Part shown: positions 35,929-48,082 of the stretch, in pieces
How positions within the stretch are numbered: the first letter of the stretch is position 1
Layout of the letters: every line of letters starts with the position of its first letter
NCBI RefSeq assembly: GCF_006351005.1
Contig: NZ_VENP01000015.1
Span: 1 to 60,969 of the forward strand
Source: Miniimonas arenae
GTDB taxonomy: Bacteria > Actinomycetota > Actinomycetes > Actinomycetales > Beutenbergiaceae
Direction: 5' to 3'
DNA: 60,969 nucleotides
The notes under the pieces: generated by a model
Databases searched by the model: none
What the model was told of the DNA's origin: nothing
Seen by the model: the letters and a program-made list of their open reading frames with translations, nothing else
Translations under genes and position numbers: made by a program

Positions 35929-36662
35929 GCGCGTCCTTCCTCGGCGCCTGCAACCCGGCGGTCAAGCTCGCGGTGCTCACGCTGTGCTCGGCTGGGGTCC
36001 TGTTCCTCACCGACCCCGCGGTGCTGGCGGCGCTCTGTGCGGCGCTGCTGCTCGCCGTCGTGCTCGCGGGCCGTGTCCCGCCGCGCGACCTGGCGCGGGC
36101 GATGGTCCCGTTCCTCGCGTTCGGCGTCGGCACGCTGCTCGTCAACGCGCTCGCGCGCCCCGGCACGCTGCTCTGGCCCGACCTGCCGGTGCGGGTGACG
36201 GCCGAGGGCGTCCGGATCGGCGCGATGCTCGCGCTGCGCACACTCGTGATCGGCACGACGGCGGTGGTGTTCGCCGCCACCACGCCGCCGCAGCGGCTGC
36301 TCACGAGCCTCGTCGAGCACGCGCGGGTGCCGCCGCGGGTGGCGTTCGCGCTGCTCGCCGGGCACCGGATGCTGCAGACGCTGCCGGAGCAGTGGACGAC
36401 GATCCGGCGGGCCCACGCGGTCCGGGCGCCGCTGCGCCGCGACGGTCGCGCGCGGTTCGGCCCGCGCGAGTACGCCCGGTGCGCGTTCGCGCTGCTCGTG
36501 ACGTCGATCCGGGCCGGTGAGCGGGTCGCGTTCGCGCTGGAGTCCCGCGGGCTCGCCGACGGGCCGCGCACGATCTGGCGGCCGACGTCGCTCGGGGTGC
36601 GCGACGTCGCGCTCGTCGGCGTGGTGCTCGGCGCGCTCGGGGTCGCGATCGGCCTCAGCTGA
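35925..36662 (+). CDS. ykoC: ECF transporter T component, YkoC-like
   Basis: This 245-residue membrane protein is the energy-coupling T subunit (EcfT/CbiQ type). It has NPAVKLAVLTLCSAGVLFL, several helices and the cytoplasmic coupling segments with Ala-Arg-Gly-like signatures (ALESRGLADGPRT; RRAHAVRAPLRRDGR). The GTG at 35925 has GGAGG at 8 nt and is preferred over the GTG at 35916. The 3' end overlaps the convergent MMPL gene by 8 bp. Confidence 0.9.
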   Translation: MSASFLGACNPAVKLAVLTLCSAGVLFLTDPAVLAALCAALLLAVVLAGRVPPRDLARAMVPFLAFGVGTLLVNALARPGTLLWPDLPVRVTAEGVRIGAMLALRTLVIGTTAVVFAATTPPQRLLTSLVEHARVPPRVAFALLAGHRMLQTLPEQWTTIRRAHAVRAPLRRDGRARFGPREYARCAFALLVTSIRAGERVAFALESRGLADGPRTIWRPTSLGVRDVALVGVVLGALGVAIGLS

Positions 36663-38985
36663 GTGCGCGCGACTCCTCACCGGTGCCCGCAGCGGCACCG
36701 GCCGCCGACGTCCGCCCCGGCACCCCGCGCCCGGGCAGCCACCAGTTCCACCGCCCGAGGAGCCGCATCGATGCCGGCACCACCACGAGCCGCACCACCG
36801 TCGCGTCCAGCGCGATCCCGATCGCGAGCCCGAACCCGAGCTGCTGGATCGGCAGGATGCCCGCGAACGCGAACGCCCCGAACACCACCACCATGAGCAG
36901 CGCGGCGCCCGAGATGAGCGGCGCGGTCCGGGCGAGCCCGCGTGCCACGGAACCCACGTCGTCGCCCGTGCGCACGTAGTCCTCCCGGACCCGGTTGAGC
37001 AGGAACACCTCGTAGTCGGTGCTGAGACTGAACAGCAGCGTGAGCAGCAGCACGGGCACGAAGTTCTGGACGTAGTCGGAGGACTCGAACCCGAAGAGCG
37101 ACGCCCCGATGCCGTCCTGGAAGACGAGCACGAGCACGCCGTACGTGGCGCCCACCGACAGCAGGTTCACCGCGATCGCCTTGAGCGGCAGCAGCACCGA
37201 GCGGAACGTCACGAGCAGGAGCACGAAGATCACGGCGAGCATCGCGAGGACCACGGTGGGCAGCGTGTCGGCGATGACCTCGTTGCTGTCCACGCCCTGC
37301 GCGGTCTCGCCGCCCACGTCGATCGAGAGCGTCGCGACTCCGGCCCCCGTCCCCGACCCCGCGACGGCCTGCGTCGCAGCATCGCGCACCTGCGCGAGCA
37401 GGTCCTGCGTCGCGGGGTCCGCGGCGGTGGCCTCCGGCACGACGTCGAGCACGAGCCGCAGGTCGTCCGCGGCCACGAAGTGGTCCACGGTCTGGCGCAC
37501 GTCGCCCGGCAGTGCCTCGCGCACGTCGGGTGCGGTCGCCGCGAGCGGGTCGCCCGGCGAGACGAGCGTGAGCACGTCGAGCGCGGAGTCCAGGCCGGCC
37601 ACGCCGTCGAGCGCACGCAGGTCCTCGGCGAGGGCGAGCACGGCGGGCGTGGCGGCGCCGTCGGACAGCGGCGTCGTGGCCGTGACGACCACCCGGATCG
37701 GCGCCGTCGCGCCCGGGCCGAACTCCTGCGCCACGAGGTCGAACCCGGCGCGCACCGGCGAGGACGTCGGGATGATCCGCGCGTCCGGGGTGAAGGTGCT
37801 CATCCCGGCGGCGGGGACGGCAAGCGCGAGCAGCAGCGCCACCGCCCCGGCGAGGAACGCCACCGGGCGGCGCATCACCGTGCGCGCGAAGGCGTCCCAC
37901 CGCCGCGACCCGGCCCGCGGGTGGCTCGAGCGCCCGGCACGCATGCTGCGCTGCAGCCGCGGACCGAGCAGCGCGAGCAGCATCGGCAGCAGCAGGAGGC
38001 TCACGAGCACCGCGGACGCGACCACGAGGACGGCCCCGAGCGCGATCGACCGGATGACGCCGAGCGGCACGAGCACGAGCGTGCACATCGCCGCGACCAC
38101 CGTGATCCCGGAGAACAGCACCGTCTCCCCGGAGGTGCGCAGCGTGGTCGCGAGCGCCTCGTCCTGGTCGCGCCCGGCCGCCAGCTCCTCGCGGAACCGG
38201 GTGATGAGGAAGAGGGAGTAGTCGACGCCGACGCCGAGCCCCAGCATCGTCGCGGCGTTCTGCACGAAGACCGACAGCTCCACCTGTCCCGCGATCAGCG
38301 AGAGCACCGCGAACGTGAGCAGGATCGCCGTGACCCCGACGGCGAGTGCGGCCAGGGCCGCGAGCGCGCCGCCGAAGAGCAGCACCACGACGAGCACGAT
38401 GAGCGGCAGCGCGATGAGCTCGGCGCGGAACAGGCTCGTCTCGCTGAGGTGGTTGACCTCGCCCCAGAACGGCGCGGCGCCGACGAGGGAGACCTCGAGG
38501 CCGTCCGGTGCGAAGCGTTCGGTGAGGTCGTGCTGGACGCCCGTCAGCAGCTGGCGAGCCTCGCCGTCCGGCAGCGCAAGCGCGACGGCGTTCACCACCG
38601 TCCGGCCGTCCTCGCCGAGGAACGCGCCCCGCGCCTCGGGCGACAGCGTGGACCAGCCGTAGGCGCTCGTGGCCTGCAGCACCGGGTCGGTCATGACGGC
38701 GTCGAACGCCTCGGCGACGCGCGTCTCGAACGCGGCGTCGGCGGCGGTGTGCGCGGTGTCGTGCACGACCAGCGTGAGCGACGTGGGTCCTCGTCCCAGG
38801 AACCCCTGCGCCACGGCCTCCTCCACGCGCTGCGACGCCGAGTCCGGCACCGCCCAGCCGCCGCCGCTCAGGCGCGCCGGCAGTCCGGAGGCGAGCAGGC
38901 CGGCGACGGCGAGCAGCGCCACCCAGGCGACCACCCCCACCCAGCGCCACCGGCGGGCGGCCACCGCGATCGCGTGCAGCCTCAT
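36655..38985 (-). CDS. MMPL family lipid exporter
   Basis: This 776-residue RND/MMPL protein has a first helix at about residues 15-35, a large extracytoplasmic loop, helices around 175-370 (including GVDYSLFLITRFREELAAGR, the proton-relay region) and a second repeat with STDYEVFLLNRVREDYVRTG in the C-terminal helix block. It begins MRLHAIAVAARRWRW; the ATG overlaps the ThiF stop (ATGA), so it is the last gene of the acyl-metabolism operon and likely exports that operon's product. Substrate assignment is inference from context. Confidence 0.92.
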   Translation of the reverse strand: MRLHAIAVAARRWRWVGVVAWVALLAVAGLLASGLPARLSGGGWAVPDSASQRVEEAVAQGFLGRGPTSLTLVVHDTAHTAADAAFETRVAEAFDAVMTDPVLQATSAYGWSTLSPEARGAFLGEDGRTVVNAVALALPDGEARQLLTGVQHDLTERFAPDGLEVSLVGAAPFWGEVNHLSETSLFRAELIALPLIVLVVVLLFGGALAALAALAVGVTAILLTFAVLSLIAGQVELSVFVQNAATMLGLGVGVDYSLFLITRFREELAAGRDQDEALATTLRTSGETVLFSGITVVAAMCTLVLVPLGVIRSIALGAVLVVASAVLVSLLLLPMLLALLGPRLQRSMRAGRSSHPRAGSRRWDAFARTVMRRPVAFLAGAVALLLALAVPAAGMSTFTPDARIIPTSSPVRAGFDLVAQEFGPGATAPIRVVVTATTPLSDGAATPAVLALAEDLRALDGVAGLDSALDVLTLVSPGDPLAATAPDVREALPGDVRQTVDHFVAADDLRLVLDVVPEATAADPATQDLLAQVRDAATQAVAGSGTGAGVATLSIDVGGETAQGVDSNEVIADTLPTVVLAMLAVIFVLLLVTFRSVLLPLKAIAVNLLSVGATYGVLVLVFQDGIGASLFGFESSDYVQNFVPVLLLTLLFSLSTDYEVFLLNRVREDYVRTGDDVGSVARGLARTAPLISGAALLMVVVFGAFAFAGILPIQQLGFGLAIGIALDATVVRLVVVPASMRLLGRWNWWLPGRGVPGRTSAAGAAAGTGEESRALS

Positions 38986-40043
38986 CGCGCGGCTCCCGTG
39001 GTCGACGGCGCGGCCTGCGCTGCGCGGGCCAGCGAGGCGGGTGGCGACGCCGGGGCGGGTGGCGACGCCGGGGCGGGTGGCGGCACCGACCGCTGCGACC
39101 GCGCGAGGTCGCGCAGCGCGAGCAGCGCCTGCACCGGCCGGCCCCACTGGGCCGACATCCGTCGACCCGCGGTGCGGACCGCCTGGTGCGCGTCGATGAC
39201 GGTATGCCGCCGCACGCGCTCGCCGGCGAGCAGGTCGACGACGATGCGCGAGGCGAGCGCCCCGAACAGCAGCGAGGTGTAGACGAGCTGGGACAGCGGC
39301 GCGTCGGGGTCGGCGAGCGAGGCGCGCGCGCTCACGAACATCTCGACGGGCACGGTGCGCAGCGGGACGATCCGGCGCAGCAGCGTCCAGGTGTGCTCGT
39401 GCTGCACCTGGGCGCGGGTGAGCCGGCCGTCGAACGGGGCGTCGCCGGGCGCGTAGTCGTAGACGCGGACGTACTGCGTGCCGGCCATGTCGTAGCCCGA
39501 GACGACCGGACGACCCAGGCGCGCGGCCGCCTCGTGCAGCGCGTACTTGGCGAGCCAGCCCGCGCGCTCGGTGACGTCGACGCCGTCGATCACGACGTCG
39601 CAGCCCTCCACCAGCGCGGTCACGCCGGTGCGGGTGATGCCGCGCTCGTGGACGGCGACGGCGGCCGCCGGGTTGATCGCGAGGACCCGCTCGGCCCCGA
39701 CCACGGCCTTGTTCCGGCCGAGGTCGCCGCGGACGGCGTGCTGGCGGTTGAGGTTGTTCAGCTCGTAGCTGCCGTTGTCGGCGAGCACGAGGTGCTGCAC
39801 GCCGAGCCGGGCGAGCGGCTCGATCACGGCGCCGCCGGTCGAGCCGCAGCCCGCGACCAGGACGACCGCCTCGGCCAGCCGCCGCTGGGTGCGCGCCGGG
39901 ACGAAGCCGCGGTTGCGGCGGGTGAGCTCCACGTAGTCGGCGCTGGGGGAGAGGCGGTGCTCGCCGTCGTGCCCGCGACGGGGGGCGGGGGACGGGCGGC
40001 GGCTCTCGGCCGAGGGCCGTGCGGTGGGGGGCGCGGTGGTCAT
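38982..40043 (-). CDS. ThiF/E1-like adenylyltransferase of the acyl cluster
   Basis: This 353-residue protein has a disordered N-terminus (about 35 residues) and an E1/ThiF/MoeB fold: ATP-binding GCGSTGG (65-71), LADNGSYELNNLNRQ with the Arg finger R100, NKAVVGAERV (K112), and the Mg-binding VIDGVD (D153/D156). It lacks the CxxC zinc motifs and an obvious catalytic cysteine of sulfur-transfer E1 enzymes, and the C-terminus is Ala/Pro-rich. E1 enzymes activate a carboxylate as acyl-AMP. Neighbours suggest the carboxylate is not a ubiquitin-like protein but part of a small molecule. GGAG precedes ATG at 9 nt. Confidence 0.85.
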   Translation of the reverse strand: MTTAPPTARPSAESRRPSPAPRRGHDGEHRLSPSADYVELTRRNRGFVPARTQRRLAEAVVLVAGCGSTGGAVIEPLARLGVQHLVLADNGSYELNNLNRQHAVRGDLGRNKAVVGAERVLAINPAAAVAVHERGITRTGVTALVEGCDVVIDGVDVTERAGWLAKYALHEAAARLGRPVVSGYDMAGTQYVRVYDYAPGDAPFDGRLTRAQVQHEHTWTLLRRIVPLRTVPVEMFVSARASLADPDAPLSQLVYTSLLFGALASRIVVDLLAGERVRRHTVIDAHQAVRTAGRRMSAQWGRPVQALLALRDLARSQRSVPPPAPASPPAPASPPASLARAAQAAPSTTGAAR

Positions 40044-40085
40044 GGGTTCTGCTCCGGTGCTGGTCAGGGGCGGATCAGGGGCGGG

Positions 40086-41075
40086 TCAGGCGGCGACGCG
40101 GTTGGTCGCGCCGTGCAGGTGCTCGCCGAGCCCGGTGGTGGCGGCGAACAGGTCGGGCGAGGCGAGGGTCTGCGTGAGCAGGTCCGCGCGCAGCTGCAGG
40201 TCGGCGCGGGAGGGCAGGTGCGAGACGAACGGCTTCACCTCACCGCGCGCGGTGTAGACCAGGTGCATGAGGTCGGTGCCGGGCAGGACGGGCGTGGTGT
40301 GCTCCACGAGCTGCACCTCGAGCCCGGCGAGCAGCAGGTGGCGCAGCGCGACCTTCTCCTCGACGTCGCCCACGAGCGTGCGGACGGGCGGGTCGCTCGC
40401 GAGCACGGCCTGCGCCACCCCGAGGAGCAGCTCGAGGGTGATCCGCAGGCGCTGCGCCTTGTCGGTCACGGTGCGGGCGCGGACGAACCGCTTGAGCTCG
40501 CGGACCTCGTGGCTCGTCGTGCCGGGCAGCGGCGCCACCTTCTCGAACACGTTGAGCCCGTGCGCGGTCTCCACCGGGAAGGGCGCCCGTGCGGGGTCGA
40601 GGAGCGGGCGCGGGGCCTCGTCCCGTGAGGAGGCCAGGCAGACGTAGCCGAGGATCCGGCCCGTGGCGCCGTCGAGTGTGAGCACGTGCACGTCGTTCGG
40701 GCCGAGCGCGGAGACCGGCTCGCAGAACCAGCCCGACGAGCGCACCACGTCGCCGCACGCCCAGCCGAGCTGGAGGTACTGCGCGAGCCGGAAGCCCTGC
40801 ATCGCGAGCGCGTAGCGGTGCGGGAGGTCCCGCGTGCGGATCGCCAGCGTGGTCAGCCCGTCGCCGCGCACCGCGAGGTGGTCCAGCGCGCCGGGCGGCA
40901 CGTGGTCCAGCAGCCGCCGGCAGCTGAGCGAGCCGTGCAGCCCGATGATGTCGCGCGTGAAGCGCTCGGTGGCGCCGACGGCGAGCATCGCGTCCGCGCG
41001 GTCGACGCCGAGCCCGCCGCGGGGCACGTCGGCAGCGGCGGACGGGTCGGTCGCGGCGAGAGTCGGGTGGCACAT
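40086..41075 (-). CDS. Putative GNAT/LuxI-like acyltransferase
   Basis: This 329-residue protein is not a family I can name with certainty. Residues 125-270 follow the layout of N-acyl amino-acid / N-acyl-homoserine-lactone synthases and related GNATs: a beta strand HVLTLDGATGRILGYVCLAS, FPVE (166-169) before a variable loop, EVRELKRFVR (190-199), a long helix ITLELLLGVAQAVL and a final RHLLLAGLEVQLVEH. In that family the enzyme moves an acyl chain from acyl-CoA/ACP to an amine. The N-terminal ~100 residues are extra. CGGAGA is 5 nt before ATG. It sits between an acyl-CoA dehydrogenase and an adenylyltransferase, which fits an acyl-ligation role. Confidence 0.6.
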   Translation of the reverse strand: MCHPTLAATDPSAAADVPRGGLGVDRADAMLAVGATERFTRDIIGLHGSLSCRRLLDHVPPGALDHLAVRGDGLTTLAIRTRDLPHRYALAMQGFRLAQYLQLGWACGDVVRSSGWFCEPVSALGPNDVHVLTLDGATGRILGYVCLASSRDEAPRPLLDPARAPFPVETAHGLNVFEKVAPLPGTTSHEVRELKRFVRARTVTDKAQRLRITLELLLGVAQAVLASDPPVRTLVGDVEEKVALRHLLLAGLEVQLVEHTTPVLPGTDLMHLVYTARGEVKPFVSHLPSRADLQLRADLLTQTLASPDLFAATTGLGEHLHGATNRVAA

Positions 41076-41242
41076 GGCGGTCTCCGGGTGGTGGTCGGAC
41101 TGGGCGTGGTGTCTGGTCGGCCGGCGGTGGTGGCGGTGGCGGAGGTGGCGCTGGCGGCGTCGACGGTGCGGCTGCGGTGGTGCGCTGCGGCGGCAGTGGC
41201 GGGCTCGAGGCGGGCGACGCGGAGGTGAGCCGCGCGCCCGAC

Positions 41243-42499
41243 TCAGAAGTCGCCGTCGTCCTCGGTGTAGATCGCGTCGGTGACGGCGAGCGCGAGCACC
41301 TCGGGGGTGCCCTCGTAGATGCGGGACCCGAGTGCCTCGCGCAGGTACTTCTCCATGCCCCAGTCGCGCACGTAGCCGCGAGCGCCCATGAGGGACATGC
41401 CCTCCTCGGCGACCTCGATCGCGATGCGGTCGGCGAAGAGCTTCGCGGTCGCGGTCTCGAAGACGGGTGCGGGCACCCGGGTGTCCGCGAGGTGCGCGGC
41501 GCGCAGGTACATCAGGCGCGAGGCCTCGACCTTCGCGGCCATCTCGGCGAGCTTGCGCGCGGTGAACTGGTGCTCGCGCAGGCGCTTGCCACCCTGGACG
41601 CGCTCGTCGCACCACGCGATCGCGAGGTCGAGGGCGCCGCGTGCGACGCCGGTCGCGATGGCCGCGACGGCGGCGCGTGCCATGTTCATCTGCGCGATGT
41701 TGATGAAGACGCCGCCGCCCTCGCCGCCGATCATGTTCTCGGCGGGCACGCGCACACCGTCGAACTGCAGCTCGGTGCCGAGGCAGGCGCGGTAACCCAT
41801 CTTGTCGGCAACGGCGCCGCGGGTGACGCCCGGGGCGTCCAGCGGGATGACGAAACAGGTCAGTCCGCTCGCGCCGGGGTGGCCCTCGAGGTTGGCGAAG
41901 ACGGTGCCGTAGTGGGCGACCTTGCCGTTGGTGATGAACATCTTCGCGCCGTCGACCACGTAGTGGTCGCCCTCGCGGCGCGCCCGGGTGACCCCGATCG
42001 CGTGCTCGGCGGCCTCGGGGATGAGCAGGTCGCAGCCGGCGCGCTCCTCGGTGATCGCGTTGCACGCGAGCACGGGGTCGTCGCCCGCGAAGAGGGGCAG
42101 GAATCGCGCCTGCACACCGGCGTCGCCCGAGAGCAGCAGCGGCGCCTGGCCGAGCATCGTGGCGCCGAAGATGAGTGCGAAGCCCGCGTCGACGGCGGCC
42201 AGCTCCTCGAGCGCCACGGCGACGCCGAGCTCCCCGTAGCCGAGGCCGCCCAGGTGGCGGGGGATGACGAGCCGGGTGAGGCCGAGCTGGTGGGCCTCGG
42301 TGACGAGCTCCCAGTCGAAGTCGGCGGCGTCGGCCTCGTCGAGGCGTCGCACGGCCGGGCGCAGCCGGGTCTGGGCGAACTCGCGGACCAGCCGGCGCAG
42401 CTCCTCGGCGTGCGCGGGCAGCGAGGTGAAGGTCGGCTCGGTGAGCGTCGGCTCGGTGAGTGAGGTGTCGGCGAAGGCGTGGACGTCGACGGCGGTCAT
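41243..42499 (-). CDS. Acyl-CoA dehydrogenase
   Basis: This 418-residue flavoenzyme has the three ACAD domains: N-terminal helices (LVREFAQTRLRPAVRRLDEA), the FAD/substrate segments NAITEERAGCDL and VDGAKMFITNGKVAHYGTVF, and the C-terminal helical domain with the MGARGYVRDWGMEKYLREAL and RIYEGTPEV motifs. Glu396 in YEGTPEV is the position of the catalytic base in short/medium-chain enzymes. It should introduce an alpha-beta double bond into an acyl thioester. AGGAG lies 6 nt before ATG. The 167 bp downstream to the acyltransferase gene are a GGCGGTGGT-type low-complexity run with no gene. Confidence 0.94.
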   Translation of the reverse strand: MTAVDVHAFADTSLTEPTLTEPTFTSLPAHAEELRRLVREFAQTRLRPAVRRLDEADAADFDWELVTEAHQLGLTRLVIPRHLGGLGYGELGVAVALEELAAVDAGFALIFGATMLGQAPLLLSGDAGVQARFLPLFAGDDPVLACNAITEERAGCDLLIPEAAEHAIGVTRARREGDHYVVDGAKMFITNGKVAHYGTVFANLEGHPGASGLTCFVIPLDAPGVTRGAVADKMGYRACLGTELQFDGVRVPAENMIGGEGGGVFINIAQMNMARAAVAAIATGVARGALDLAIAWCDERVQGGKRLREHQFTARKLAEMAAKVEASRLMYLRAAHLADTRVPAPVFETATAKLFADRIAIEVAEEGMSLMGARGYVRDWGMEKYLREALGSRIYEGTPEVLALAVTDAIYTEDDGDF

Positions 42500-42579
42500 G
42501 GCGCTCTCCTGGCTCTGGCGGATCGAGATGCGGGATCGAGGTGCGGGCGGATGGTGAACAGCGGCAGTGGCGGCGCGGC

Positions 42580-42969
42580 TCAGGCCGCGACGCCGGCCTC
42601 ACGGGCGATGGCCGGGTAGCGGTCGAACGCCGGCTGCAGCAGCGGCGCGAACTCGATGACCTTGGCCACGCTGCCCTTGATGCGGATGCGGCCCATCGCG
42701 ACGGCGACCGGCATGAGCAGGTGGCCGGACCAGAGGGCGTGCGCGGTGTCGCACGACATCTTGATCGCGAGCGCGGCGGTGGCCGGGGAGTCGTCGATCC
42801 GGACGCCGTCCGGGTCCACGTACATCTCGAACTCGGGCGCCGTGTGCACGAACCGGACGGACAGCCCGTCGCGGCGCATCGTCGAGGTGAAGGTCTCGTC
42901 CCGCAGCATGATCTCGAACAGGTGGGAGAACACGGCGACGGCCTGCTCCCGGGTGGTGTACGTGCTCAT
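42580..42969 (-). CDS. SCP2 sterol-carrier-like lipid-binding protein
   Basis: This 129-residue protein matches the SCP2 fold: an N-terminal helix (QAVAVFSHLFEIMLRDE), a beta sheet (LSVRFVHTAPEFEMYVDPDG) and the hydrophobic C-terminal part ending with a helix (MGRIRIKGSVAKVIEFAPLL). SCP2 domains bind fatty acyl-CoAs or other lipids. AAGGAG lies 5 nt before ATG, and the ATG overlaps the stop of the upstream NTF2-like gene. It probably presents acyl substrates to the following dehydrogenase; this is inference. Confidence 0.85.
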   Translation of the reverse strand: MSTYTTREQAVAVFSHLFEIMLRDETFTSTMRRDGLSVRFVHTAPEFEMYVDPDGVRIDDSPATAALAIKMSCDTAHALWSGHLLMPVAVAMGRIRIKGSVAKVIEFAPLLQPAFDRYPAIAREAGVAA

Positions 42970-43709
42970 CGGTGCTCCTTGGGCGTGATCGGTCGTGCGT
43001 GGTGAGTGGTGCGGCGCAGGTGCGCCGTCCCGAGCAGGGCGAGCAGTGCGCCGATCGCGGCGCGCGCGGTGTCGGCGCGTCGCGTGACCCCGACGGCGAG
43101 GCGCAGCGCCGCACCGCCGAGCGCGGTGTCCGCGACGGTGAGGGGCGGCAGGAGGCCGGCCTGGTGCAGGACGGAGGCGACGTCGAAGGAGAAGTGGTCC
43201 TCGAGCAGCTTCCCGTCGCGGAACTCCACGACGCTGAGGCAGCGGATCTCCAGGCGCCGGCCGGTCGGCGGGAGCCCGAAGAGGGTGCCGGCGTGGGTGC
43301 CGCGGATGACGTACTCCTCGGCGACGAACCGCCCGCGGGGCAGGCGCTGCGTGACCTCGAGCGTGAGGTCCGGCAGGCCGGCCATGAGCCGCTCCAGGTA
43401 CGCCCCGACCTCGGCCTTGCCGCGGTAGCGACGCCCGGCCGCGACGTCGTGCCACACGATCTCGTCGTCGTAGTGCGCGAGGATCCCGGGCACGTCGTGC
43501 GCGTTCCAGCGCGGCACGACCAGCGCGAACGCGGCCATGTTGGCGCGCTCGCCCTCGAGGAGGTGCGCCGAGGGACCCCAGGCGGCTGCGCCGTCGGGCG
43601 TCTGATCGGGGGCGACGGAGGCGACGGAGCCGACGGTGCGGGCAACGGGACCGGGACCGCTGGTGCGGCCTCGGTCGGGCTGCGCGGCGGTGGTGGCCGT
43701 CGTGGTCAT
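42966..43709 (-). CDS. NTF2/SnoaL-like protein
   Basis: This 247-residue protein has a disordered N-terminus (~50 residues), an NTF2-like cone fold at about 55-185 (WNAHDVPGILAHYDDEIVWH, YRGKAEVGAYLERLMAGLPD, FVAEEYVIRGTHAGTL, VVEFRDGKLLEDHFSFD) and a C-terminal helical tail of about 60 residues. The fold occurs in polyketide cyclases (SnoaL), ketosteroid isomerases and dehydratases; the active residues are not clear here. GGGAG is 5 nt before ATG. It is the first gene of the operon running to the MMPL exporter. Confidence 0.8.
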   Translation of the reverse strand: MTTTATTAAQPDRGRTSGPGPVARTVGSVASVAPDQTPDGAAAWGPSAHLLEGERANMAAFALVVPRWNAHDVPGILAHYDDEIVWHDVAAGRRYRGKAEVGAYLERLMAGLPDLTLEVTQRLPRGRFVAEEYVIRGTHAGTLFGLPPTGRRLEIRCLSVVEFRDGKLLEDHFSFDVASVLHQAGLLPPLTVADTALGGAALRLAVGVTRRADTARAAIGALLALLGTAHLRRTTHHARPITPKEHR

Positions 43710-43838
43710 CTCGTCTCCCGGGTCGGGGCCGCTGAGGGCTGCTCAGCGCCGCGTCGGTCTGGCTGTGTCCTGCTGGGTCACGCTCGTTCTCGCTCGGTCG
43801 CACCGAGCGCGTACCCCTCGTGAGCACGAGCCGGCGCT

Positions 43839-43868
43839 GCTGATACGTCCGGCGCACGCGGTATCAGC
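43839..43868. promoter_or_regulatory. Perfect inverted repeat in the divergent promoter region
   Basis: GCTGATAC (43839-43846) and GTATCAGC (43861-43868) form a perfect 8-bp inverted repeat with a 14-bp spacer (22 bp centre to centre). It lies between the SnoaL-like gene (start 43709, minus) and the hydrolase (start 43985, plus). The left arm with its flank, TGATACGTC, recurs at 46570-46578 before the CrtI-like gene. It could be a shared operator or promoter element. Confidence 0.5.
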
Positions 43869-43984
43869 CGGTACGGCGCGCGCTCGTTCACCGGCAACAG
43901 CCGCGCACGTCTGCGCGGCACGTGCTGAGGCCGCGTGCGCACCCCGCTGGTGCGCGGCGAGCCCACGACCGCCGGAGGCGATAG

Positions 43985-44767
43985 GTGACCGAGCCGAGCG
44001 CCGCCGTCGATCGTCTCGCCCGCGCCCGCGAGCTCGGTGCCGTGGCGGGCTCGGTGGTGCGCGGATCGGTCCGGCTGCTCGCCGCGCCGCTGCGGGAGCC
44101 GAGCCGCGCCGCGGCCTGCTGCGCCACCTCGGGCACTCGTGCCAGGTCGGTGTCGCTCACCCCGGTCGTGCTCCTGCACGGCTACGGGGGCGACCCCCGG
44201 GACTGGGCGCCGCTCGCGCGGGTGCTCGCGGCCGGCGGCTACGTGCACCGCGACGCGATGGCCTACGACTGGGTGCGGCACGACGTGCCGAGCATCGCCG
44301 CTGCCCTGGTCGAGCGCTGCGAGCGCGCGCGGGAGGGCGCCGGGTCACCTCGGGTGCACGTCGTGGGGCACAGCCTCGGCGGGGTCGCGGTGCGCTACGC
44401 CGTGCAGCGCCTCGGCCTGGCCGAGACGGTCGGCGTCGCCGCGACCGTGGCGGCGCCGCACCGCGGCACCCGGGTGGCGCGGCTCGGCCTCGGCGCCGCG
44501 GTCGCGGCGATCCGGCCCGGCTCGCCGGAGCTCGCGCTGCTCGCGAGCACGCAGGCGCCCGACGGCGTGCGCTGGCTCGCGTACTGGTCCGACCTCGACC
44601 GCGTGGTCGAGCCGGCGTCGGCGCGGCTGGAGGTCCCCGGGCTGCGCGTCACGCGGGTGCGCGTGCCCGGGGTCGGGCACACCGCGATCCTGCGCTCGCG
44701 GGCGCTCGCGGTGAGCCTGCTCGGCGAGCTGCTGGTCGCCGACGCCGAGGACGCGGCCGCCGCGTGA
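43985..44767 (+). CDS. Alpha/beta hydrolase (lipase-like)
   Basis: This 260-residue protein has an alpha/beta-hydrolase fold with oxyanion motif VVLLHGYGGDPRDW, nucleophile elbow VVGHSLGGVAVRYAV and a C-terminal GVGHTAIL histidine. The architecture and the GHSLGG elbow resemble bacterial class-2 lipases and PGAP1-like esterases. The N-terminal 55 residues are cytoplasmic-looking rather than a signal peptide. GGAGG is 6 nt before the GTG start. It is divergent from the acyl operon and likely co-regulated through the inverted repeat between them. Confidence 0.86.
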   Translation: MTEPSAAVDRLARARELGAVAGSVVRGSVRLLAAPLREPSRAAACCATSGTRARSVSLTPVVLLHGYGGDPRDWAPLARVLAAGGYVHRDAMAYDWVRHDVPSIAAALVERCERAREGAGSPRVHVVGHSLGGVAVRYAVQRLGLAETVGVAATVAAPHRGTRVARLGLGAAVAAIRPGSPELALLASTQAPDGVRWLAYWSDLDRVVEPASARLEVPGLRVTRVRVPGVGHTAILRSRALAVSLLGELLVADAEDAAAA

Positions 44768-44791
44768 GTCAGGCCGGTCTGCGGCGGTGAG

Positions 44792-46513
44792 TCACGCCGT
44801 CGTGCGCCCCGCGCCTCGCCGGCTGCGCGCCCGGTCGGCGATGACCGTGCCGGCGGTGTTGTACCCCGAGAGCATCACCCACGGCACGCCGGCGGTCGGC
44901 TGCGACCAGTGCCCCGCGAGGTAGAGGCTCGGCACGGGCGTGCGCTGCGCGGGCCGTTCGCGGGAGAGCAGCTCTGGGCTGAACGCCCAGCCGGCGAACG
45001 CGCCCTCGGCGTTGCCGGTGTCGCGTGCGAGGTCGGCCGGCGTGCGCACCTGCCGCACCACCACGTGCTCCGACAGGCCCGGGATGAGCGCCTCCGCGCG
45101 GCGGACGAACACGTCGGCGATGTGCTCGGCGTCGCGCTCCCAGTCGATGCCCGCCGAGGCGAGGCGGGTGGGGCACTCGAGCTTGATCGAGTGCATGCCG
45201 GGCGGCGCCATCTCCGGCTGGTGGAACGTGGCGACGTAGACGTAGAAGGCGGCGTGCTCCACGTCGCCGGCCGGGAAGCGCGCCATCGACGCGTCGATGT
45301 CGACCTCGGGGTAGACGAACGTGAGGCGCTTGACGGCGTCGCGGTAGGGCTCGAGGTCCATGTCCACCCCGAGCTGCACCTGGAAGAACGACGGCGTCGT
45401 CGCCATCGTCGGGAGCCTGCGACGCAGCGCCGCCGTGCTGCGCAGGGGCGGCAGCAGCTCGGTGAACGTGCGGCGGGCGTCGCCCGCCGAGACCACGGCG
45501 TCGGCCGTGAACGTCCGCCCGTCCGCGGTGCGCACGCCGGTCGCGCGGCCGTCGGTGGTGAGGATGCGGGTCACCTCAGCGTCGCGCACGACGGCGCCGC
45601 CCGCCTCCGCGATCGTGCTCAGCAGCGCGTCGCGCAGCGCGGAGAAGCCACCGCGGGGCATCCACTGCGTGCGCAGCGCGTGCGTGAAGAAGACCCCGGC
45701 GATCACCGCGGACAGCTCCGAGGGCGCCGACGCGATGCCGACGCACAGCATGGAGAAGTACGCCTTGAGGGTCGGGTCGACGAGGTGCTCGTCGAGGAGG
45801 TCCTGCAGCGTGCGGCCCTGGTACCTCGCGAGCGTCGCGCCCGGCAGGTGCAGCGCGTTCATCGCCGGCGCGAGCGCGCGGCTCACCCACGGGCGCTGGA
45901 ACTGCTCGAAGACGGGGTCGAGGAGGCGGCGCTCGCCGGGGTGGGCCTGCACACGGAAGGACGGCACGAACACGTCGAGGTCGGCGACCATCTGCTCCAT
46001 CGCGAGGAAGACCGCCTCGATGCCCTCGCGTTCGCGGGGGAACCGGCGGGTGAACTCCTCGGCGGCGGCGCTCAGGTCGGCCGGCACGGCGACGGAGTCC
46101 TCGGGCAGCACGCACCGGTAGTCGTGGGTGTGCGGCTCCATGACGACCTTCTCGTCCAGGCCCAGCCGCTTGAACACCTCGCGCGCCTGCCCGCCGAGGC
46201 GGTAGGCCAGGAAGATGTGGCCGCCGTGGTCCCAGTGGAACCCGTGCGCGTCGTGGCCGTCGGAGTAGCCGCCCGCGACGGGCTGCTTCTCCAGCAGCAC
46301 GACGTCGAGTCCCGCCCGGGCGAGCGTCGCCGCCGAGGTGAGGCCCGCGATCCCACCGCCGACGACGACGGCGTCGTGGTGGGTGCCGCCGAGGTGGTGC
46401 TCGCCGTCGGACACGCCGGCGTGCTCGTCGGACAAGGGGCGGGCCGTTCGCGCGGCGTCGGATGCTCGCGGCGCGGGGCGGGAGACGGGGGGCGGCGTAC
46501 GGGTGCTGGACAT
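44792..46513 (-). CDS. CrtI-like FAD-dependent oxidoreductase (phytoene desaturase / carotenoid isomerase family)
   Basis: This 573-residue protein has a disordered N-terminal ~45 residues, then the dinucleotide-binding motif VVVGGGIAGLTSAATLARAG with the ribose-binding Glu75 (LLEKQPVAGG), a GFHWDHGGHIF segment and the C-terminal FAD motif LYLAGHWSQPTAGVPWVMLS. The family contains phytoene desaturases, CrtISO isomerases and retinol saturases, all acting on long hydrophobic chains. No other carotenoid gene is nearby, so the substrate may instead be the cluster's acyl product. ATG 46513 has AGAGG at 7 nt; a GTG 30 bp upstream is less likely. Confidence 0.88.
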   Translation of the reverse strand: MSSTRTPPPVSRPAPRASDAARTARPLSDEHAGVSDGEHHLGGTHHDAVVVGGGIAGLTSAATLARAGLDVVLLEKQPVAGGYSDGHDAHGFHWDHGGHIFLAYRLGGQAREVFKRLGLDEKVVMEPHTHDYRCVLPEDSVAVPADLSAAAEEFTRRFPREREGIEAVFLAMEQMVADLDVFVPSFRVQAHPGERRLLDPVFEQFQRPWVSRALAPAMNALHLPGATLARYQGRTLQDLLDEHLVDPTLKAYFSMLCVGIASAPSELSAVIAGVFFTHALRTQWMPRGGFSALRDALLSTIAEAGGAVVRDAEVTRILTTDGRATGVRTADGRTFTADAVVSAGDARRTFTELLPPLRSTAALRRRLPTMATTPSFFQVQLGVDMDLEPYRDAVKRLTFVYPEVDIDASMARFPAGDVEHAAFYVYVATFHQPEMAPPGMHSIKLECPTRLASAGIDWERDAEHIADVFVRRAEALIPGLSEHVVVRQVRTPADLARDTGNAEGAFAGWAFSPELLSRERPAQRTPVPSLYLAGHWSQPTAGVPWVMLSGYNTAGTVIADRARSRRGAGRTTA

Positions 46514-46568
46514 CGCGTGGCCTCTCGACGGTGGTGGGTCCACCAGAGATGACCCGTGAGGGTGGGCG

Positions 46569-47326: not shown

Positions 47327-48082
47327 ATGGCCACGTACGACGTCTCCGACCGGTCCGCGATCGTCACGGGTGCCGGGTCCGGGATCGGGAAGGCGGTGGC
47401 GCTGCTGCTCGCGGCGAACGGTGCCGCAGTGGTGGTCGCCGACGTGAACGGCGAGGCCGCCGAGGCGGTCGTCGGTGAGATCGAGGCGGCGGGCGGCTCC
47501 GCCGTCGCGCACGTCGGCGACGTGACCGACCCGGCGGACGCCCAGGCGTGCGTCGAGGCGGCCTCGGCGCTCGCGCCGCTGCGCGTCGCGGTGAACAACG
47601 CGGGGATCGGCGGACCGATCGCGCCCACGGGGGAGTACCCGGTCGAGGGGTGGCAGAAGGTGCTCGGCATCAACCTGTCCGCGGTGATGTACGGGATCCG
47701 CGCGCAGGCGCCCGCGATGGCGAAGGCCGGCGGCGGGTCGATCGTCTCGACGTCCTCGATCCTCGGTTCGGTGGGGTTCGCGGGCTCGGTCGCCTACGTG
47801 GCCGCCAAGCACGGCGTCGTCGGCCTGACCCGGACCGCGGCGCTCGAGTACGCCCCGCAGAGGGTGCGCGTGAACGCCGTCGGACCGGGCTTCATCCGCA
47901 CGCCGATGGTGTCCGCCTCGCTCGACGAGGCCACGCTCACGTTCCTCGAGGGCAAGCACGCGCTCGGCCGGCTCGGCGAGCCCGAGGAGGTCGCCGCGCT
48001 CGTGGCGTTCCTCGCCTCGGACGCGGCGAGCTTCGTCACCGGCGGCTACTACGTCGTGGACGGCGGGTACACCGCGCAGTAG
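47327..48082 (+). CDS. Short-chain dehydrogenase/reductase
   Basis: This 251-residue classical SDR has the NAD(P) motif TGAGSGIG, Asp39-like VVVADVNGE (favouring NAD), NNAG, catalytic Ser in VSTSSILGS, and YVAAK, ending DGGYTAQ. It oxidises or reduces an alcohol/ketone substrate that sequence cannot specify. AGGAG lies 6 nt before ATG 47327. It stands alone, convergent with the tad operon. Confidence 0.93.
   Translation: MATYDVSDRSAIVTGAGSGIGKAVALLLAANGAAVVVADVNGEAAEAVVGEIEAAGGSAVAHVGDVTDPADAQACVEAASALAPLRVAVNNAGIGGPIAPTGEYPVEGWQKVLGINLSAVMYGIRAQAPAMAKAGGGSIVSTSSILGSVGFAGSVAYVAAKHGVVGLTRTAALEYAPQRVRVNAVGPGFIRTPMVSASLDEATLTFLEGKHALGRLGEPEEVAALVAFLASDAASFVTGGYYVVDGGYTAQ

Follow-up and report, generated by a model that had tools for sequence, protein, structure and literature searches.

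A six-gene operon of Miniimonas arenae as a candidate variant of acyl-oxazolone-type pathways

What would a bacterium make with an E1-type adenylating enzyme, an acyltransferase resembling LuxI, an acyl-CoA dehydrogenase (ACAD) and a lipid exporter when their genes lie together in one operon? Such a set is found in Miniimonas arenae (Actinomycetota), within the 60,969-nucleotide stretch of DNA analysed here (the window), which forms the start, from base 1, of contig NZ_VENP01000015.1 in a 3.4 Mb genome that is 99.7% complete. The thymidylate synthase encoded in the window has only actinobacterial proteins among its eight best plasmid matches. An earlier note on this DNA, made from the letters alone, had described six consecutive minus-strand genes, taken them to make and export an acylated product, and known no described pathway with this combination of genes. 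Both the reading frames and a codon-position G+C as expected for genes bear out the six, which run at 36655-43709 in the order SnoaL-like, SCP2-like, ACAD, acyltransferase (AT), E1/ThiF and MMPL. Our best reading of this operon is a variant of an acyl-oxazolone-type pathway that combines an ACAD and an exporter with an E1 enzyme and a LuxI-fold acyltransferase, the latter two being a single fused protein in one phylum and the products of neighbouring genes in the other. On balance, and with a slight lean in favour, we consider that the operon makes and exports a small N-acyl amino acid that has been cyclised, in an oxazolone-like form, or whose carboxyl group has been activated in some other way.

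Acyl-oxazolones are a class of bacterial lipids described only recently, with roles still to be established (PMC12856293), and the core of the pathways that make them (OxzAB, TyzABC and TrzAS) is an N-acyltransferase of FeeM/BjaI-like fold together with a ThiF protein (PMC10404671, PMC12856293). The pairing of acyltransferase and ThiF thus belongs to a described kind of pathway, although the earlier note knew of none with this gene combination. TyzA has FeeM and BjaI as its nearest structures, TyzB is a ThiF cyclase, TyzC is a nitroreductase-family desaturase, and mmpL9 flanks tyz (PMC10404671). Both TyzB and TrzS carry out ATP-dependent cyclisation of N-acyl amino acids (PMC10404671, PMC12856293), TrzS being a ThiF-oxidase fusion that has been described together with TrzA, and in two ThiF subclusters most genes adjoin an oxidase, an acyltransferase or both (PMC12856293). 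ThiF together with nitroreductase has been tied to dehydro-N-acyl-tyrosines (PMC12479983).

The acyltransferase and the E1 enzyme

The AT gene (40086..41075, minus strand) encodes an orphan acyltransferase of 329 aa with no sequence match in Pfam, NCBIfam or PDB, and the description of this protein as LuxI-like, which its sequence does not bear out, stands for its predicted fold, that of N-acylhomoserine lactone (AHL) synthases and FeeM. Using Foldseek and VIA-align we compared an AlphaFold model, built with 13 relatives (mean predicted local distance difference test score 75.8; residues 1-49 of low confidence), with PDB structures. The top matches were the AHL synthases BjaI (Z 14.4), RpaI (Z 14.0) and TofI (Z 13.8), with further matches to LasI (Z 13.6) and MesI (Z 13.1) and to FeeM, which is an N-acyl amino acid synthase (2G0B; Z 13.1), while ordinary GNATs reached a Z of at most 12.7, so that in the model the lead of AHL synthases over GNATs is clear but not large. 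Although alike in predicted fold (Z 11.0-14.4), AT and the LuxI-type AHL synthases BjaI, LasI and EsaI share only 12-18% identity, and AT is paired with an ATP-using E1; identity to FeeM is 12%, and the literature covered makes no mention of a FeeM-E1 fusion. Residues D128, E193 and R196 of AT are invariant in a 14-row alignment and may correspond to the E-x-x-R pattern of LuxI proteins.

The adjoining gene (38982..40043, minus strand) encodes a predicted E1/ThiF adenylating enzyme of 353 aa (PF00899, 100 bits), which is 41-51% identical to its 15 best relatives and retains the G-x-G-x-x-G, N-R-Q, Lys and Asp positions of the nucleotide site, with its conserved Asp aligned to that of MoeB. It contains no CxxC, whereas E. 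coli MoeB and ThiF have two CxxC (Zn) pairs each, and no ubiquitin-like partner was detected with Pfam among the 49 window frames that our Pfam scans covered (in part with an E-value limit of 1e-5 or 1e-3). For TrzS, residue D217 is reported to be required for cyclisation (PMC12856293).

In a tree of 50 rows, from which one E1-AT fusion (L034) was omitted, a split at 98/91 places the window E1 with a TrzS-type protein (annotated as Rv1355c family), apart from MoeB and ThiF. On the side of the window E1 lie 12 of the 13 fusions described below, the E1 proteins of L044 and L045, the ThiF proteins of Ensifer and Shinella, which come from nitroreductase-bearing gene runs, those of Rhodococcus and Staphylococcus, and one relative from the order, and on the other side lie E. 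coli MoeB, ThiF and TcdA, most of the order relatives, archaeal rows and some others. The same split was recovered at 100/99 after removal of most of the longest branches, which left 35 rows. The nearest kin of the window E1 differs between the two, being the fusions with 50 rows (94/38) and L044/L045 with 35 rows (83/38). A small Staphylococcus epidermidis plasmid (L009:5953-7712) encodes a ThiF protein that falls, on a long branch, on the window-E1 side; its gene has two uncharacterised genes 3' and an MFS gene nearby.

A related gene set in Gammaproteobacteria

A scan of genome contigs for E1 confirmed 97 loci, of which 80 were kept, L031-L045 being the 15 best. Thirteen of these 15 (L031-L043), all from Gammaproteobacteria, encode E1 and AT as one protein of 568-587 residues, the C-terminal half of which is homologous to AT of the window at 22-29% identity. 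The hosts are nine Pseudomonas, records of Thalassolituus, Saccharospirillaceae and Thalassobium, and one member of the Chromatiales. The gene order 3' of the fusion is the same in all 13 loci, namely ACAD, RND/MMPL, an uncharacterised gene, LolA-like (PF17131) and DUF1302 (PF06980), the last two identified by Pfam in L037 and by similarity to L037 in the remaining loci. Because many of the 13 are near-copies of one another, we count about three independent lineages, in addition to the window. The uncharacterised gene between RND and LolA-like (L037:15469-16506 and equivalents, 13/13 loci) encodes a protein of 295-381 aa that is probably exported, judging from its N-terminus, with no Pfam match above cut-off in the three tested.

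This recurrence of E1, LuxI-fold AT, ACAD and an RND/MMPL exporter as a unit in another phylum fits the proposal that the operon makes an acylated compound and exports it. The earlier note had looked to co-occurrence of the ThiF, acyltransferase and SCP2 genes, and this is borne out for the first two by the fused loci, while by profile AT was found in one of 394 sampled genomes of its own class, its own genome, and the SCP2-like protein is unmatched in the gammaproteobacterial loci. Weak matches obtained with the single AT sequence (2/149 and 7/394 genomes, own included) were rejected; three of them sit inside an ACAD gene, and one of the genomes concerned, G043, had no match in the 394-genome profile search. 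With AT as query the genome-contig scan returned no relative, and AT, a gammaproteobacterial AT and the AT of L115 gave no tblastn match in plasmids, nor was one found in viral contigs. In the class of Thalassolituus, AT was found in two of 369 genomes, the query genome and G609. The G609 protein is distant (L115:7613-9043), joined to a cNMP-binding domain, and encoded beside a gene that by eye resembles acyl-CoA/ACP (acyl carrier protein) synthetases; the 10.9 kb covered contain no E1.

The E1 was found by profile in eight of 396 genomes of the phylum at 1e-25, own included, and in the stretches covered near the E1 of the other seven no AT was detected by profile. In L131, L132 and L134, from the same phylum (G+C 44-49%), an N-acyltransferase-like gene lies beside or near E1, with no nitroreductase or ACAD nearby, and the E1 locus L133 was set aside as an apparently unrelated cluster. 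The two of the 15 best E1 loci without a fusion, L044 and L045, have neither AT nor ACAD near E1 by tblastn, and no AT was found elsewhere in their genomes; automatic gene calling had skipped E1 in L044 and L010, where tblastn was used.

The proposed pathway and its rivals

The ACAD-family flavoprotein of the window (418 aa; 41243..42499, minus strand; PF00441, PF02771 and PF02770) is our proposed desaturase. ACAD lies beside E1-AT in 14 of the 14 loci that have both (the window and L031-L043; about four lineages), and was found neither at the AT-less E1 loci L044, L045, L008, L009, L010, L131, L132 and L134 nor in the E1 locus L118, with 6.8 kb covered. That no ACAD was found at E1 loci without AT suggests that the dehydrogenase is part of the pathway chemistry, with either the amino acid or the acyl chain as its possible substrate. 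The catalytic Glu of ACADs is known from two sites, that of medium-chain acyl-CoA dehydrogenase (MCAD type) and that of isovaleryl-CoA and long-chain acyl-CoA dehydrogenases (IVD/LCAD type). The window protein has Y-E-G-T near its C-terminus, where five aligned gammaproteobacterial ACADs (of the 13) have A-G-G-T, with L-V-E-R earlier, and we take Y-E-G-T and L-V-E-R to be the MCAD-type and IVD/LCAD-type places of the Glu, respectively. The simplest inference is that an ACAD was recruited independently, or replaced, for the same pathway in two phyla.

From the gene content, the kinship of the E1, the fusion and its recurrence, together with the predicted fold of AT, we infer the reactions and their order, an amino acid as acyl acceptor, and export of the product, as follows. 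AT would acylate an amino acid with acyl-CoA or acyl-ACP as donor, and the E1 would adenylate the carboxylate of the resulting N-acyl compound, after which the ring would close, as with TyzB and TrzS. ACAD would then add a C=C bond, most likely between C-alpha and C-beta of the N-acyl amino acid, be it cyclised or free, and so fill the role of the nitroreductase-family oxidase in oxz, tyz and trz. The product would be exported by the MMPL protein (776 aa; 36655..38985, minus strand; PF03176, 275 bits), perhaps handed over by the SCP2-like protein. Since a similar set with a fused E1-AT is found in distant bacteria, the operon probably encodes a variant pathway for small acyl-amino-acid lipids or signals that leave the cell.

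Compared with tyzABC of Mycobacterium tuberculosis (PMC10404671), the operon shares an acyltransferase of predicted FeeM/BjaI fold, a stand-alone ThiF cyclase and an adjoining MMPL gene, but the nitroreductase-family flavin oxidase TyzC occurs in tyz only, and the ACAD, SnoaL-like and SCP2-like genes in the window only. With trzAS and oxzAB it shares the N-acyltransferase and the ThiF domain, which in those systems is fused to a nitroreductase-type oxidase (PMC12856293), whereas in the gammaproteobacterial relatives of the window cluster it is fused to the acyltransferase. Two features of acyl-oxazolone pathways, an N-acyl amino acid synthase fold and a ThiF-family cyclase, thus appear to be present in the operon, the former by its structure model and the latter by its grouping in the trees. 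The term acyl-CoA dehydrogenase has no occurrence in PMC10404671, PMC12856293 or PMC12479983, and the literature searched, subscription papers not covered, yielded no description of an ACAD in the nitroreductase's place or of an E1-AT fusion.

Several observations weigh against the proposed pathway. Among the 49 window frames scanned, which include the operon and its two flanking genes, Pfam detects no nitroreductase desaturase, while it does detect the Ensifer nitroreductase, at 28 bits. The parallel with oxazolone systems is incomplete for this reason, and we do not class the cluster as a member of the acyl-oxazolone pathways, the defining nitroreductase desaturase having been looked for and not found. 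None was found in the gammaproteobacterial loci either, whether by Pfam (the genes of the L037 module plus ten proteins from its flanks) or by phmmer, an insensitive test whose TrzS-side reference missed the Ensifer nitroreductase. The sole PF00881 match in the M. arenae genome lies on contig 74, in a frame of ~205 aa from its likely start, as opposed to ~340 aa for the oxidases, as judged by eye. Another possibility is that ACAD acts earlier and desaturates the fatty acyl chain prior to transfer. The likeness of AT to TyzA is one of nearest structures. The Ensifer and Shinella proteins encoded upstream of ThiF had been considered as AT homologues and were rejected, a profile comparison having detected no similarity in sequence between them and AT, so that the Ensifer/Shinella parallel is limited to ThiF and nitroreductase. 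In NCBIfam the window E1 scores 92 bits with PRK08223, 81 with ThiF models and 65 with the Rv1355c/TrzS model, all below cut-off, and the E1 trees have long branches and rows that do not include TyzB and OxzB. Among the matches to the window ACAD in three genomes, the ACAD of the gammaproteobacterial module ranks 6th of 13, 7th of 13 and 3rd of 3, and the RND/MMPL proteins encoded 3' of ACAD in 13/13 loci are only distant kin of the window MMPL. Because the module ACADs are not nearest kin and the exporters are distantly related, the operon was not inherited whole, and we dropped orthology of the whole operon across the phyla, the SnoaL-like and SCP2-like proteins being also unmatched in the gammaproteobacterial loci.

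Other explanations start from the same genes. In an ATP-driven signal synthase of LuxI type, AT would acylate a homoserine-like amino acid, the E1 would close a lactone, lactam or other ring, ACAD would set the unsaturation of the acyl chain, and the resulting AHL-like signal would be sensed by receptors of LuxR type. This is in line with the closer fit of AT to AHL synthases (Z up to 14.4) than to ordinary GNATs (up to 12.7) and with the LuxR-type gene that lies directly upstream of the fusion, on the same strand, in the Chromatiales locus (L039, 8752-9606; Autoind_bind 60 bits, GerE 59 bits). However, such a gene is found in one of the 13 gammaproteobacterial loci, the other 12 having a PAS-domain protein directly upstream (L031:8925-9803 and equivalents; 225-319 aa as called, with no family assigned to the C-terminal part; by Pfam on two loci and by similarity for the rest), neither Autoind_bind nor GerE is matched by Pfam among the 49 window frames, with no LuxR-type gene beside the window operon, and the nearest characterised acyltransferase-ThiF systems yield oxazolones. 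We regard the LuxR-type neighbour as a hint of a signalling link and this explanation as doubtful. A structural aminolipid, that is, an N-acyl amino acid of the envelope that the E1 couples to another molecule and that MMPL or RND/LolA-like/DUF1302 proteins move outward, seems unlikely to us. RND, LolA-like and DUF1302 lipid export sets are of a general kind in diderms, and the gammaproteobacterial modules end in such genes where the window has a single MMPL; the RND, uncharacterised, LolA_like and DUF1302 genes would suit lipid transport to the outer membrane, but published acyltransferase-ThiF pairs give small cyclic products, and a second coupling partner is without support.

Two further explanations fare worse. 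Lipid catabolism often involves an ACAD, and possibly SCP2, and the operon might on that basis serve routine breakdown of fatty acids or be a random assembly of lipid genes, which we judge very improbable: E1, AT, ACAD and an exporter recur in L031-L043 with E1 and AT fused, and Pfam finds no hydratase, 3-hydroxyacyl-CoA dehydrogenase or thiolase in the operon or the neighbours scanned. A role of E1 and AT in modifying proteins or peptides, by ubiquitin-like or MccB-like chemistry, is scarcely credible. E1 folds do act on proteins and peptides too, and the PDB matches include MccB and PaaA, but no ubiquitin-like or precursor-peptide gene was recognised in the operon, short peptides not having been searched systematically, and in the trees the E1 clusters with small-molecule cyclases.

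The variant acyl-oxazolone-type pathway that we prefer admits a more far-reaching form, which we entertain as a tentative possibility, well short of probable: the LuxI-fold AT and the E1 would be one machine, with S-adenosylmethionine-free N-acylation, ATP-dependent ring closure, an independently recruited ACAD, a dedicated exporter and, in at least one lineage, LuxR-type sensing. The loci with an E1-AT fusion, ACAD and full export line offer non-mycobacterial hosts for studying the product, its transport and its role, and the desaturation step may here fall to another family of enzymes. The LuxR-type gene next to the fusion in one lineage suggests a possible link between acyl-oxazolone-type lipids and quorum sensing.

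Operon layout, minor genes and neighbours

The junctions of the operon are mixed. Of the three overlapping or nearly overlapping junctions reported before, two are 4-base overlaps (ATGA; SnoaL-like/SCP2-like and E1/MMPL) and one is near (AT/E1, 42 bases), and there are also gaps of 80 bases (SCP2-like/ACAD) and 167 bases (ACAD/AT). A GGAG-type motif, indicative of the ribosome-binding sites that the earlier note had seen, lies 5' of all six operon starts, whereas a crude count over the whole window finds it at 6 of 40 automatically called genes; because automatic gene starts are unreliable, the contrast with supposedly leaderless window genes is only suggestive.

Pfam and NCBIfam agree with the family calls made previously for the SnoaL, ACAD, ThiF and MMPL proteins of the operon and for the alpha/beta hydrolase and CrtI-type neighbours; the SCP2 call is weak. 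Operon gene 1 (42966..43709, minus strand) encodes a SnoaL-like protein of NTF2 fold and 247 aa (PF12680, 73 bits; PF07366, 69 bits), with GGGAG 5' of its start. The putative SCP2-like protein (129 aa; 42580..42969, minus strand) scores 14.6 bits with PF02036 against a cut-off of 21.3, its single-sequence structure model was uninformative, and a PDB sequence search gave no meaningful match, so its identity by sequence remains weak. Neither protein had a phmmer match in the 13 gammaproteobacterial loci.

Upstream, the region between the operon and the divergent hydrolase gene (43710..43984, no strand assigned) is a probable promoter region, as inferred from the gene layout alone. The hydrolase (260 aa; 43985..44767, plus strand) matches PF12697 at 38 bits and is followed by a CrtI-family-like FAD oxidoreductase of 583 aa (44792..46543, minus strand; Amino_oxidase PF01593, 111 bits), which scores 176 bits with TIGR02734, under the cut-off of 238. 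The earlier note had described both as flanking the six genes, and we do not count them as members of the cluster, neither being found in the gammaproteobacterial modules. At its 3' end the operon overlaps a CbiQ-type transporter gene tail to tail. Elsewhere in the window, a second MMPL-family gene lies far from the operon at 20-2614, and a generic short-chain dehydrogenase is encoded at 47327-48082.

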